Below, in pieces: positions 11,297 to 43,540 of a stretch of DNA of 64,000 nt. The position numbers and the translations under genes were made by a program. Below the pieces are notes generated by a model. It was given only the letters and a program-made list of their open reading frames with translations. It did not search any database and was not told the DNA's origin. Origin of the DNA: Terasakiella sp. SH-1 (GTDB taxonomy: Bacteria > Pseudomonadota > Alphaproteobacteria > Rhodospirillales > Terasakiellaceae); NCBI RefSeq assembly GCF_004564135.1, contig NZ_CP038255.1, forward strand, positions 1,644,501-1,708,500. Reading direction: 5' to 3'. How positions within the stretch are numbered: position 1 is the first letter of the stretch; each line of letters starts with the position of its first letter.

Positions 11297-11311
11297 ATCA
11301 TGGCTCTAGGT

Positions 11312-11497
11312 CTAGGGTCAGGACCGATTAATTTACTGAGTTTGGTTTGTAAAAAATGCCGAAGGGACGGGCTCAAAATAAAGGTGGCTCGCGTTATAAA
11401 ACTCTTGCAATGGAGGGCACTGCGACGAGTTTCATGCCTAATCCACCTTTATTTTGAGCGCCGCCAAACTTAGTAAATTAATCGGTCCTGACCCTAG
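11312..11497. mobile_element. 186-bp nested inverted-repeat element (MITE-like)
   Basis: The outer arms at 11312-11345 and 11464-11497 match at 33 of 34 positions and begin CTAGGGTCAGG. A second, perfect 17-bp pair lies inside (11371-11387 with 11443-11459), and AAACTC/GAGTTT (11398-11403, 11427-11432) sits within that. No coding capacity. The layout resembles a small non-autonomous element or a REP doublet. Confidence 0.75.
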
Positions 11498-11927
11498 CCA
11501 TATATAATCACTCTTTGCCTCTTTTTCAAAGCCGTACGTTTAAGATTCGGATAAGGAAAGATACCCCGACGCAAGATAAACAACACATAAATCGAAAATA
11601 GGTAGCCAACTAATAAAACCATACAGAGTGTCTATTTTCGAAATAACAACAGACAAAAGAAGAATCTACACCTTAGAAGTGCAAAGCAAGTTCTATTATT
11701 TTAAAGGAATTGCAGTATTAATTAGAGTAATAACAAATACTTATACAATTGAGTAATGTGATTATGTAACCTGTATCTTTCAACAAAGTCAGTATGTTAA
11801 AGCCAAAAAAATGGACCAAAGCCATTCTACACCTTGCTATAGAGTTGAATATAATTAGAATGTGGAGCCACTTGTGAATAAACAAAATTAAAAATCATTC
11901 ACAAAAAGCTAAGCTAGGGAGCCATAG
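11498..11927. other. AT-rich leader of the globin-coupled chemoreceptor
   Basis: About 430 bases with no gene found. Composition is markedly AT-rich towards 11.7-11.9 kb. An AGGGAG ribosome site lies just before the ATG at 11928. I could not assign a -35/-10 pair with confidence. Confidence 0.4.
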
Positions 11928-14124: not shown

Positions 14125-14139
14125 ATCTTACAGCTCTTA

Positions 14140-14405
14140 GAGCCTGCCCCAAAAGTATTTGTTACTTTTCATAGCCTTATGTTTGTTCGTCAGTAGAAAA
14201 GATTTGTGAGGTGATGCTGGAGGCATCATAAGCAAATCTTGACGCCCTGACGGGCGAACATAAGGCTACCCTTCGGGTCAACGTCTCAGGGGCAACTGTC
14301 GCGTCAACACGTTTAACCGATGCCCCGCATCGCTTTGCACGTGTTTCCTAACTTTTATCCTTGAGTAAGTTGATGAAAAACAACAAATACTTTCGGGTCA
14401 GGCTC
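14140..14405. mobile_element. 266-bp multi-hairpin inverted-repeat element
   Basis: Outer arms at 14140-14163 and 14382-14405 match at 22 of 24 positions. Inside are two hairpins: one at 14172-14268 (22-nt arms with 3 mismatches, then AAGATTTG/CAAATCTT, then apex GATGC-TGGAG-GCATC) and one at 14306-14345 (AACACGT/ACGTGTT around CGATGC-CCC-GCATCG). Both apices share GATGC/GCATC. The right outer arm ends in GGGTCAGGCTC, echoing the ends of the element at 11312. No coding capacity. Confidence 0.7.
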
Positions 14406-14507
14406 TTAATTCCCGTTGATCTTGCGCATGAGAAAAGCCAGAAGACCAATCACAACCACAACAGTTGTCACAACCCCACCAATGCCAAACATTGCAATAC
14501 TATCCAT
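14406..14507 (-). CDS. 33-residue single-pass membrane peptide
   Basis: A small gene missed by length cut-offs. It starts at ATG 14507 with AAGGAG 9 bases upstream (14517-14522 on the minus strand) and encodes MDSIAMFGIGGVVTTVVVVI followed by GLLAFLMRKINGN. It is one transmembrane helix with a positively charged C-terminal end, in the style of small subunits or regulators of membrane complexes. It lies about 90 bp beyond the 3' end of the FNR-like gene, and its stop codon touches the outer arm of the repeat element at 14140-14405, so the element may have inserted at its end. Function unknown. Confidence 0.65.
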   Translation of the reverse strand: MDSIAMFGIGGVVTTVVVVIGLLAFLMRKINGN

Positions 14508-40639: not shown

Positions 40640-41269
40640 ATGAGTAATATGCCGGAAAAAAGAAAATCACGTATTCGCGAACGCAATGAGGAAGCAATCC
40701 TTAAGGCGGCTGAACGTATTTTCGCGCAACAAGGATTTGGCGCTGCCACAACCGCAGAAATCGCCAAGGAAGCAGACATTCCCAAAGCAAACCTGCATTA
40801 TTATTTCAGCACCAAAGAAGACCTTTACCTGTGTGTGTTGGAAAACATCCTCAAAACATGGTTAACAGCGGCAGAAGATTTTACAGCCGACCACGCCCCC
40901 AAAGAGGCTTTGGAAAATTACATTCGAACCAAAGTTGAACTTTCCCGTACCCGCCCGGAATCTTCTAAAATTTTTGCCAAAGAAATCATCAGCGGTGCAC
41001 CTTTCCTGTCGACCCACCTGAATAATGACATCAATCCATGGATCGAAGAGAAAGTTCGCATTTTTGATCACTGGATTGAACAAGGTAAAATGGCCCCCGT
41101 GGATGTGCGCCATCTTTTTTTCCTGATTTGGTCCATGACACAAACCTATGCCGACTTTTCCACACAGATCGGTATTGTTCTGCAAAAAGATGAATTGGAA
41201 GAACAAGACTTCCAGACAGCGGCCGATATGATCGTTGCGATGGTCCTTTCTTTGTGCAAGCTGCATTAA
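40640..41269 (+). CDS. TetR-family regulator, RutR-like
   Basis: A 209-residue repressor. The HTH is at about 14-60 (EEAILKAAERIFAQQGFGAA, TTAEIAKEADIPKANLHYYF), and the ligand/dimer domain (FAKEIISGAPFL, DHWIEQGKMAPVDVRHLFFL) fits the TetR_C_3 group that includes RutR, the uracil/thymine-responsive regulator of pyrimidine use. No rut genes are next to it, so its targets are elsewhere. It is 17 bp behind the HIT gene. Confidence 0.85.
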   Translation: MSNMPEKRKSRIRERNEEAILKAAERIFAQQGFGAATTAEIAKEADIPKANLHYYFSTKEDLYLCVLENILKTWLTAAEDFTADHAPKEALENYIRTKVELSRTRPESSKIFAKEIISGAPFLSTHLNNDINPWIEEKVRIFDHWIEQGKMAPVDVRHLFFLIWSMTQTYADFSTQIGIVLQKDELEEQDFQTAADMIVAMVLSLCKLH

Positions 41270-41402
41270 AATATCATTTGTGTGATCCGCGTCACATCTG
41301 TATGAAAAAGCATCTATTAAAAAGAGAATGTCACCAAAACAGGGGACGACATAAAAAACAAAGCCGCGTATGAACGCGAAAAAGCTTATACAGGGGACTA
41401 AA

Positions 41403-41567
41403 ATGTTATCGAAAAAATGGGCGCAAAGCGGAATTGAACCCAGCCTGAAAGAAATGATGAAAGATCCAATTATTGAATTGATCATGGCGCGTGATAATCT
41501 GAAAACAGATGATGTCTGGCAAGTCGTCCAGAACGCAAAACAACAAATCGAACAGCGTGCGGCCTAA
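41403..41567 (+). CDS. 54-residue hypothetical protein
   Basis: A small helical, soluble protein starting MLSKKWAQSGIEPSLKEMMK. AGGGGA lies 6 bases before the ATG at 41403, better than the in-frame ATG at 41370. A terminator follows 46 bp later, so it has its own short transcript. Family not recognised. Confidence 0.6.
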   Translation: MLSKKWAQSGIEPSLKEMMKDPIIELIMARDNLKTDDVWQVVQNAKQQIEQRAA

Positions 41568-41612
41568 TCTTTCCTTCCCTTTTATCAAAGAGGGTTGTAG
41601 ATTGCCTGTCAA

Positions 41613-41636
41613 AAGCGTCCTGACATCAGGGCGCTT
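41613..41636 (+). terminator. Rho-independent terminator
   Basis: AAGCGTCCTGA, then CA, then TCAGGGCGCTT, with the inner pairs probably open as a loop, followed by CTTATTTAT. It ends the small gene at 41403. Confidence 0.7.
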
Positions 41637-41665
41637 CTTATTTATCTAAACTATGGAGATTTACA

Positions 41666-41986
41666 ATGGCTGATCAAGTCGGCGCGGCACACATCCTTCT
41701 CATGTACGCAGGTTCTGCACGTTCTACAGCAACACGCAGCAAAGAAGAAGCACTGGACCAAATCAAACAGATGAAAACCGACATTGACGGTGGTGCTGAT
41801 TTCGGTGAACTGGCGCAGAAAAACTCTGACTGCCCCTCTGGTGCAAATGGTGGCGATTTGGGTATGTTTGGTCGCGGTCAAATGGTGCCGGAATTTGAAC
41901 AGGCTGCTTTCTCCATGGAAGTGGGTGCAACAAGTGACGTTGTGGAAACTGATTTCGGTTACCACCTCATCCAACGCACATCCTAA
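41666..41986 (+). CDS. small parvulin-type peptidyl-prolyl isomerase
   Basis: A 106-residue single-domain parvulin. Motifs AAHILLMYAGS, FGELAQKNSDCPSGANGGDL, GMFGRGQMVPEFEQAAFSM and DFGYHLIQ cover the whole catalytic fold, in the style of PpiC of E. coli. There is no signal peptide or SurA extension, so it acts in the cytosol. GGAG lies before the ATG. The four-way-junction element starts 11 bp after the stop. Confidence 0.92.
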   Translation: MADQVGAAHILLMYAGSARSTATRSKEEALDQIKQMKTDIDGGADFGELAQKNSDCPSGANGGDLGMFGRGQMVPEFEQAAFSMEVGATSDVVETDFGYHLIQRTS

Positions 41987-41996
41987 AATACATTTT

Positions 41997-42099
41997 AAAA
42001 GAAAACGCCATCGCGCAAAGCTTGCGTGATAATTGATAAAAGCGATAGAGTGTCTTTTGTTGATTAGCCTGTTGTTTCAGGCTGGCGTTTTCTTTTTTT
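41997..42099 (+). other. structured element: perfect four-way junction ending in a T-run
   Basis: Five segments pair without a single unpaired base at the junction. P1: 41997-42010 with 42083-42096 (14 bp, perfect). P2: 42011-42017 with 42023-42029 (7 bp, one G-T). P3: 42030-42042 with 42054-42066 (13 bp, three G-T). P4: 42067-42071 with 42078-42082 (5 bp). The G-T pairs point to RNA. T residues continue past P1, so it can work as a terminator of the parvulin transcript, but the internal cloverleaf is far more than a terminator needs. It could be a small RNA, an RNA stability or regulatory element of the downstream gene, or a mobile repeat. Confidence 0.6.
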
Positions 42100-42114
42100 G
42101 TGGAGCTGTGAAAC

Positions 42115-42786
42115 ATGGCGGGCATTGACCTGGATTTCCCGGAAATCATCTTCATCAAGCGATTAGACGGTACCGGCTATGGTTTTTTCTATTCAACCCC
42201 TGCCCAGTTTGACAACGCCGCCCACGGCTTTATCGGCCCAATAAAAGAACGCATCAAAGAAGAATCAAAAGGCAAGGAAGAACTTCCTGTCAAAGCCGAA
42301 GAATTCTGTCTGAAGGCATCCTTAACCTCCATTCAAAAAGTATTTGAACCCAACTGGGAAGATAGCGAAGGTATTGACGGTGCCCGTTGCGTTGCCGCCT
42401 CCTGCGTTGCTGAATATAAATGGGATGATGTGGTTCCCCAGTGCGTGGTCATCGAACAGGCAGGTGATGATATTACCTTGCGCGAAGGTTTTGAATTCCT
42501 TGAACACCCCGGTTATCCCCTCTGCGTCGTCATTGGCTCCAAGGGTGATGGCGGGGGCCTGAGCACCTTTTTTGACAGCGCAGATGAATTTCGCCAGGTT
42601 GCCACAAAACCACCAAGTGAGCATACATGGTTGCCACAGCTGATCTATCGCCTCTATGCCAAAACACCTTCAATCATGACAGGGTTCCCCACCCCCAGCA
42701 GCGATGGCAATGGCGTCAGCGTTGAATGCCATGCCTACACATTAAACCGGCAGGGACAGCTGATTGAAAGGCACCGTAAAACGTGA
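42115..42786 (+). CDS. hypothetical protein
   Basis: A 223-residue soluble protein (MAGIDLDFPEIIFIKRLDGT...) I do not recognise. It contains Cys residues at RCVAASCVAEYKW and QCVVIEQ, and a strand-rich middle (GYPLCVVIGSKGDGGGLSTF). GGAG precedes the ATG. It lies between the four-way-junction element and a response regulator gene, 63 bp downstream, and may be co-transcribed with the latter. Confidence 0.6.
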   Translation: MAGIDLDFPEIIFIKRLDGTGYGFFYSTPAQFDNAAHGFIGPIKERIKEESKGKEELPVKAEEFCLKASLTSIQKVFEPNWEDSEGIDGARCVAASCVAEYKWDDVVPQCVVIEQAGDDITLREGFEFLEHPGYPLCVVIGSKGDGGGLSTFFDSADEFRQVATKPPSEHTWLPQLIYRLYAKTPSIMTGFPTPSSDGNGVSVECHAYTLNRQGQLIERHRKT

Positions 42787-42849
42787 TTTTCATCGACGAA
42801 CAATCCAACTTAAGGTATAGTGCCTCATCTTTTGAAAAGGGTTTGTAAT

Positions 42850-43362: not shown

Positions 43363-43438
43363 TGGCATCTCCAAGGGGACTCGAACCCCTGTTGCCGCCG
43401 TGAAAGGGCGGAGTCCTAGGCCACTAGACGATGGAGAC
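43363..43438 (-). tRNA. tRNA-Glu (UUC), copy 2 in transcript order
   Basis: Acceptor GTCTCCA/TGGAGAT, anticodon stem CCGCC/GGCGG with loop CTTTCAC giving anticodon UUC, T-loop GGTTCGAGTCC, discriminator G and an encoded CCA. All four arms fold. Sequence is identical to the copy at 43465-43540. Confidence 0.97.
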
Positions 43439-43464
43439 ATAGGATATATATTCATAAGGAAAGG

Positions 43465-43540
43465 TGGCATCTCCAAGGGGACTCGAACCCCTGTTGCCGC
43501 CGTGAAAGGGCGGAGTCCTAGGCCACTAGACGATGGAGAC
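43465..43540 (-). tRNA. tRNA-Glu (UUC), copy 1 in transcript order
   Basis: Same 76 bases as the copy at 43363-43438, including the encoded CCA. The two are 26 bp apart and share one promoter and one terminator. Confidence 0.97.

Follow-up and report, generated by a model that had tools for sequence, protein, structure and literature searches.

A terminator-like element with a four-way-junction fold downstream of the parvulin gene of Terasakiella sp. SH-1

Directly downstream of a parvulin-type gene in Terasakiella sp. SH-1 lies an element that by its predicted layout is terminator-like, not a canonical member of the class. We consider it likely to be a lineage-specific intrinsic terminator that ends the parvulin message, in which three hairpins cap the stem instead of a short loop. 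A terminator shape immediately ahead of the downstream Shine-Dalgarno sequence, not the four-way fold, persists across part of the genus, and the junction is probably an accidental solution, one of several in the genus, rather than a selected fold. Positions are those of the window, the 64,000-nt stretch of contig NZ_CP038255.1 that we analyzed, and the downstream gene is named by its start, 42115.

Predicted fold of the element

Folded as plus-strand RNA, 41997-42096 adopts a minimum-energy structure of four helices around a junction with zero unpaired bases (42 pairs, -44.3 kcal/mol; Table 1), bearing out the initial annotation, which had described about 100 nt in this arrangement. The same annotation had called the closing stem P1 a perfect 14-bp helix; this is correct for the inverted repeat, whose arms (41997-42010 and 42083-42096) match over 14 bp with 72 nt between them, but not for the minimum-energy fold, where P1 has 13 bp and 42010 pairs in P2 and 42083 in P4 instead of forming the fourteenth pair. 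The T-run that it placed after P1 is there too, as seven T at 42093-42099, the first four paired within P1. P1 starts 10 nt past the parvulin stop codon, and 15 nt separate the T run from the 42115 start codon.

Table 1. Features of the element and its surroundings, in window positions
Feature	Position	Strand	Basis
Terminator-like hairpin, separate, ahead of the parvulin gene	41613-41636	+	6/6 family genomes
Upstream gene, parvulin-type PPIase, 106 aa	41666-41986	+	Pfam PF13616/PF00639
P1 5' arm, A-rich, AAAAGAAAACGCC	41997-42009	+	Inverted repeat and fold
P2 hairpin, 9 bp, 3-nt loop, one G-U pair	42010-42030	+	Fold
P3 hairpin, 12+2 bp, 1-nt bulge, four G-U pairs	42031-42065	+	Fold
P4 hairpin, 6 bp, 6-nt loop	42066-42083	+	Fold
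P1 3' arm, GGCGTTTTCTTTT	42084-42096	+	Inverted repeat and fold
U-rich tract TTTTCTTTTTTT, overlapping the P1 foot; likely RNA release site (predicted)	42088-42099	+	Sequence
GTGGAG, likely Shine-Dalgarno of the 42115 gene, abutting the T run	42100-42105	+	Read by eye
Downstream gene, 223 aa	42115-42786	+	No Pfam or NCBIfam match; in 6/6 family genomes

None of 5000 dinucleotide shuffles of 41997-42096 reached the energy of the element (shuffle mean -21.9 kcal/mol, sd 3.1), and none of 200 equaled that of the wider context 41980-42115 (-47.7, z -5.4). Closure of P1 shifts the energy from -25.6 to -44.3, and the mean pair probability of P1 was 0.94-0.99 across six sequence contexts. The inner cap without P1 has a z of -3.9, with 7 of 5000 shuffles equally stable; it is stabler than a terminator requires, which is a point against our reading. 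When the interior was shuffled around an unchanged 14-bp P1, at least three branches arose in 484 of 5000 sequences, and at least three branches with no unpaired junction base in 8 of 5000. This control is approximate, since P1 has 13 bp in the real fold, which itself fails the 14-bp test.

The strand of action was read from the G-U pairs. The initial annotation had taken G-T pairs in P2 and P3 to favor an RNA role, and the five such pairs are indeed valid on the plus strand only; the stability of P1 agrees, and an RNA role on the plus strand is supported by these predictions. The minus strand as RNA reaches -33.3 and loses most of P3. Because P1 is retained, its fold nevertheless outdoes its own shuffles by a wide margin (z -6.4, none of 200 as good), so the strand argument depends on the G-U pairs and not on the z-score.

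Folds of the growing chain from 41960 formed the final P2, P3, and P4, after which P1 closed from its GC core outwards; other pairing with upstream sequence was favored at three of 12 lengths (42045, 42060, and 42078). In a cell, P2, P3, and P4 would accordingly be modeled as folding successively during transcription, the distant P1 arms may be brought together at the stacked junction, and P1 could then zip up, starting at its CGCC/GGCG core, during synthesis of the U-rich tract, a layout that would free the RNA.

Terminator layout and its background in the genome

The element shares with intrinsic (Rho-independent) terminators a stable GC-cored stem (13-14 bp) directly before a U-rich tract (TTTTCTTTTTTT), an A-tract before the stem, and a position at a gene end. 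It differs in having three stacked hairpins, 72 nt in all, as its loop, whereas TransTermHP is described as permitting loops of 3-13 nt (PMC1852404), so this program would not report the site as one hairpin; that range belongs to the search procedure and is not demonstrated to be necessary for termination. The objection in the initial annotation that no terminator needs such a structure is correct as it stands, but given the P1/U-tract layout and the hairpins found in two relatives (see below) it is no argument against a terminator. A search of titles and abstract openings in the open-licence PMC literature found no branched-cap intrinsic terminator under the terms used. The HRC-28-1 3'-UTR motif is comparable in that, as described, it is a structured RNA that follows a gene and closes with a terminator (PMC8632094); it is reported from 33 unique examples, and our element is a single example.

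Terminator scores were calculated with the d'Aubenton Carafa formula. The element scored 23.6 with the tail taken from 42088 and 27.1 with the tail from 42093, -3.5 with the whole of P1 as the stem, and -34.4 for P4 alone; the hairpins at the same place in the related genomes G001 and G003 scored 34.7 and 39.1, and the hairpin at 41613 scored 2.3. A simple terminator scan of this region picked P4, not P1, and returned six sites against 4.7 in shuffles. The same scan called the G001 hairpin and missed that of G003, so the terminator shape in G003 rests on folds.

As background we used a 464-kb sample, about 12% of the genome, made up of the window and a further 20 segments of 20 kb. Under a strict rule, stems of at least 11 perfect pairs before a T tract numbered 22 with short, five with intermediate, and four with long loops, and among the four only this element has three branches. 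A density-limited scan of 3475 T tracts, with one shuffle per site, gave 59 dense simple hairpins against 11 in shuffles, and the genome therefore seems to use intrinsic terminators. Dense shapes with two branches occurred four times (three in shuffles) and those with three or more twice (none in shuffles), this element being one of the two; with two or more branches and a P1 of at least 10 the count was two against two, or two against one at stricter density. Dense branched caps being not clearly above shuffles, no class backs the element: branched caps are rare in this sample and are not shown to form a class. A looser scan of the same 3475 tracts (simple shapes, 116 real and 55 shuffled; those with two branches, 125 and 147; those with at least three, 170 and 106) if anything favors branched shapes, and we distrust it because it admitted long, loosely paired folds and did not separate coding sequence.

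The 42115 gene would most likely be reached by read-through, since the T run abuts its Shine-Dalgarno sequence, leaving no room for a promoter, and a scan of the plus strand from 41092 to 42792 found no promoter-like site. Inspection by eye adds only a TAAAAT (41984-41989), whose -35, spaced at 19 nt, is poor. If the gene is supplied in this way, the element would lower its level relative to parvulin.

The same place in related genomes

We compared six family genomes placed in one genus, G000 (this genome) to G005. The parvulin and 42115 genes are adjacent in all six, and a terminator-shaped structure stands between them in three (G000, G001, and G003), each built differently. Spacers, measured between the last parvulin codon and the first downstream-gene codon that could be matched, are 131 nt in G000, where they hold the four-way junction; 90 nt in G001, the nearest to it of the genomes compared, with two separate hairpins and TTTATTT after the second; and 102 nt in G003, with one long simple hairpin followed by TTTTTTTT. 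A T-rich tail leads into the Shine-Dalgarno sequence in each of these three (TTTTTTTGTGGAG, TTTATTTGTGGAG, and TTTTTTTTGGAG, respectively). The spacers of G002, G004, and G005 measure 19, 19, and 25 nt, with a true length by eye of 10-16 nt, which is insufficient for a terminator. The two genes give an unrooted tree that divides {G000, G001, G003} from {G002, G004, G005} (ultrafast bootstrap 95 for protein, 90 for DNA), and the terminator shape at this place tracks one side of the genus while its build differs per genome. An AAATATC/GATATTT outer stem imposed on G001 gave -24.2; left as two separate hairpins, the structure reaches -30.7, and so no four-way junction is favored there.

The separate hairpin ahead of the parvulin gene serves as a reference. 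Seven of its eight inspected pairs are standard in all six genomes, and one position varies among C-G, T-G, and T-A. Because this hairpin is conserved in all six, these genomes can reveal conserved structure at the locus, and the four-way junction shows none. The sequence TTGTAGATT was seen by eye just 5' of this hairpin in five of the six. Outside the six, the 42115 family had one match among 40 genomes searched (G026, 38% identity). A scan of a named genome collection placed the family at four loci, which we equate with members of the six: Terasakiella brassicae (G003), T. pusilla (G002), and two Methylocystaceae-titled MAGs (G004 and G005).

We searched 199 genomes of the order with a covariance model (R1) built from the single sequence, using filters under which some weak matches are missed. 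The model matched in four genomes, namely this one, where the element was found on both strands, G005, and two at about 19 bits, and within the limits of those filters it found no syntenic relative of the element among the 199. The two weak matches were judged unrelated: in G085 (19.5 bits) the best own fold is not four-way, and that in G074 (19.3 bits) aligns mainly through a P4-like terminator hairpin, with P2 missing; the own fold of the G074 sequence sets this hairpin within a multi-branched loop. The strongest match outside this genome, at C52:17539-17646 of G005 (L094 1501-1608; 32.9 bits, E 5.5e-7), is non-syntenic, lying in opposite orientation between two minus-strand open frames, and ends in a T run. 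It is one copy of a dispersed repeat, which has 20 matches in G005, three in this genome, two in G004, and one in G002. Its own best fold is a single rod (-52.8), and it can be forced into the four-way layout at -39.2. We read it as a REP-doublet-like repeat of similar general layout and not as a homolog, yet it stands as the one strong result to the contrary. A unit related to this repeat, followed by a T run, is also present in this genome (L099).

The element itself is single copy. Searched as DNA against this genome (E up to 10), the whole element has no second copy; the 19 matches were the element and 18 pieces of 14-24 bp, among them its two P1 arms on the opposite strand. Recurrence of the P1 arms genome-wide had been raised with the initial annotation: exact 8-base arm cores with a 60-90 nt gap do recur, at one site (808091) besides the element, while the element as a whole does not. 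The P2 sequence has three further sites in this genome, each with three mismatches, two of them (L047 and L048) within long open frames, and a 20-bp DNA match in G004 spans P2 only and was judged chance. The proposal that the element is a repeat of the family at 11312 and 14140 is not supported; those are separate multi-copy palindromic families. The repeat at 11307-11502 is MITE-like, with 39-nt ends 92% complementary, and has 36 matching pieces in this genome, 28 in G001, and none in G002, G003, and G004; that at 14139-14406 has 23 matching pieces in this genome and four in G001, and its 57-bp inner part also stands alone at seven places.

No Rfam family matches the element at curated scores, and the sole match at a loose threshold (15 bits, 41595-41641) lies outside it. 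ARAGORN found no tRNA-like cloverleaf at the element; it returned only two tRNA genes in the window, tandem tRNA-Glu (ttc) genes on the minus strand at 43363-43540. Collections of phage (50,697 records) and plasmid (72,556 records) sequences gave no match at E up to 0.1.

Alternative readings and meaning

The terminator shape stands directly ahead of a Shine-Dalgarno sequence, and with P1 so close to the parvulin stop codon a terminating ribosome could touch its foot, an arrangement that would suit a regulated attenuator of the 42115 gene in which a ligand, a protein, or that ribosome opens P1 and allows read-through. In all four folds beginning at 42011 or later, which lack the 5' arm of P1, P4 moreover pairs around the start of the 42115 gene. 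We rejected this pairing as evidence for a switch, since its energy (-19.4) was equaled by 232 of 1000 and 323 of 1000 shuffles and is thus ordinary. Among the competitors tried, none approaches the pairing of the P1 arms with each other (-16.6): the 5' arm with the parvulin gene gives -11.3, the 3' arm with the same gene -8.8, and the arms with the cap -6.0 and -5.9, and the P1 probability held steady in all six contexts. A riboswitch or leader would be expected to be conserved along with its downstream gene, and here the gene is found in all six genomes and the fold in one, so that the earlier suggestion of a conserved leader RNA for the 42115 gene is not supported. We regard an attenuator as unlikely, and these predictions do not point to a regulatory switch at the element. 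Less probable again is the more elaborate version, a lineage-specific four-way-junction RNA that is both the 3' end of the parvulin message and a switchable attenuator, formation of P1 halting transcription and P4 becoming free for the 42115 start when P1 opens. If it were true, it would be a compact junction-gated switch overlooked by loop-limited terminator finders.

The compact and very stable fold also invites comparison with a small RNA of about 100 nt, derived from the parvulin 3' UTR or from its own promoter, with the P1/U-tract as its terminator, and the seven terminal T fit a feature reported for the terminators of Hfq-binding small RNAs (PMC5558911). This, too, is improbable: the same source ties functional small RNAs to hairpins of moderate strength, whereas the element is very strong and has its first four T paired. 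The absence of a plus-strand promoter-like site in the scan, of an Rfam match, and of a syntenic relative in the lossy-filter covariance search of 199 genomes likewise speaks against it, and the sequence leaves few unpaired stretches usable as a seed. The G005 match, a dispersed repeat that can be forced into the four-way layout, would suit an origin as a decayed palindromic element, which we take to be of the REP-doublet or REPIN-like kind, domesticated as a terminator. REP doublets and REPINs are likewise palindromic and intergenic; the element differs in being single copy, in having unrelated halves (P2 and P4 are not mutual inverted copies), and in its strand-specific G-U pairs. With the best fold of the G005 repeat a rod and not a junction, and P2 recurring only with three mismatches, we give this origin little credence. 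A DNA-level role, as a cruciform or protein site, could draw on the junction formed by single-stranded DNA (-25.7, z -6.5) and on the minus strand, which keeps P1 and outdoes its shuffles. It is the least probable of these readings, as the five G-U pairs are valid on the plus strand only, the minus strand loses most of P3, and the terminator layout and position suffice as an explanation.

We suggest that an intrinsic terminator ending the parvulin message is the best account of the element, and that the layout of such terminators may accommodate a fully branched cap, which short-loop tools would not report as one hairpin. If capped terminators are functional, surveys with a 13-nt loop limit would undercount them. 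The comparison across the genus further suggests that a stop signal between neighboring genes can be rebuilt among sister species while its place is kept.
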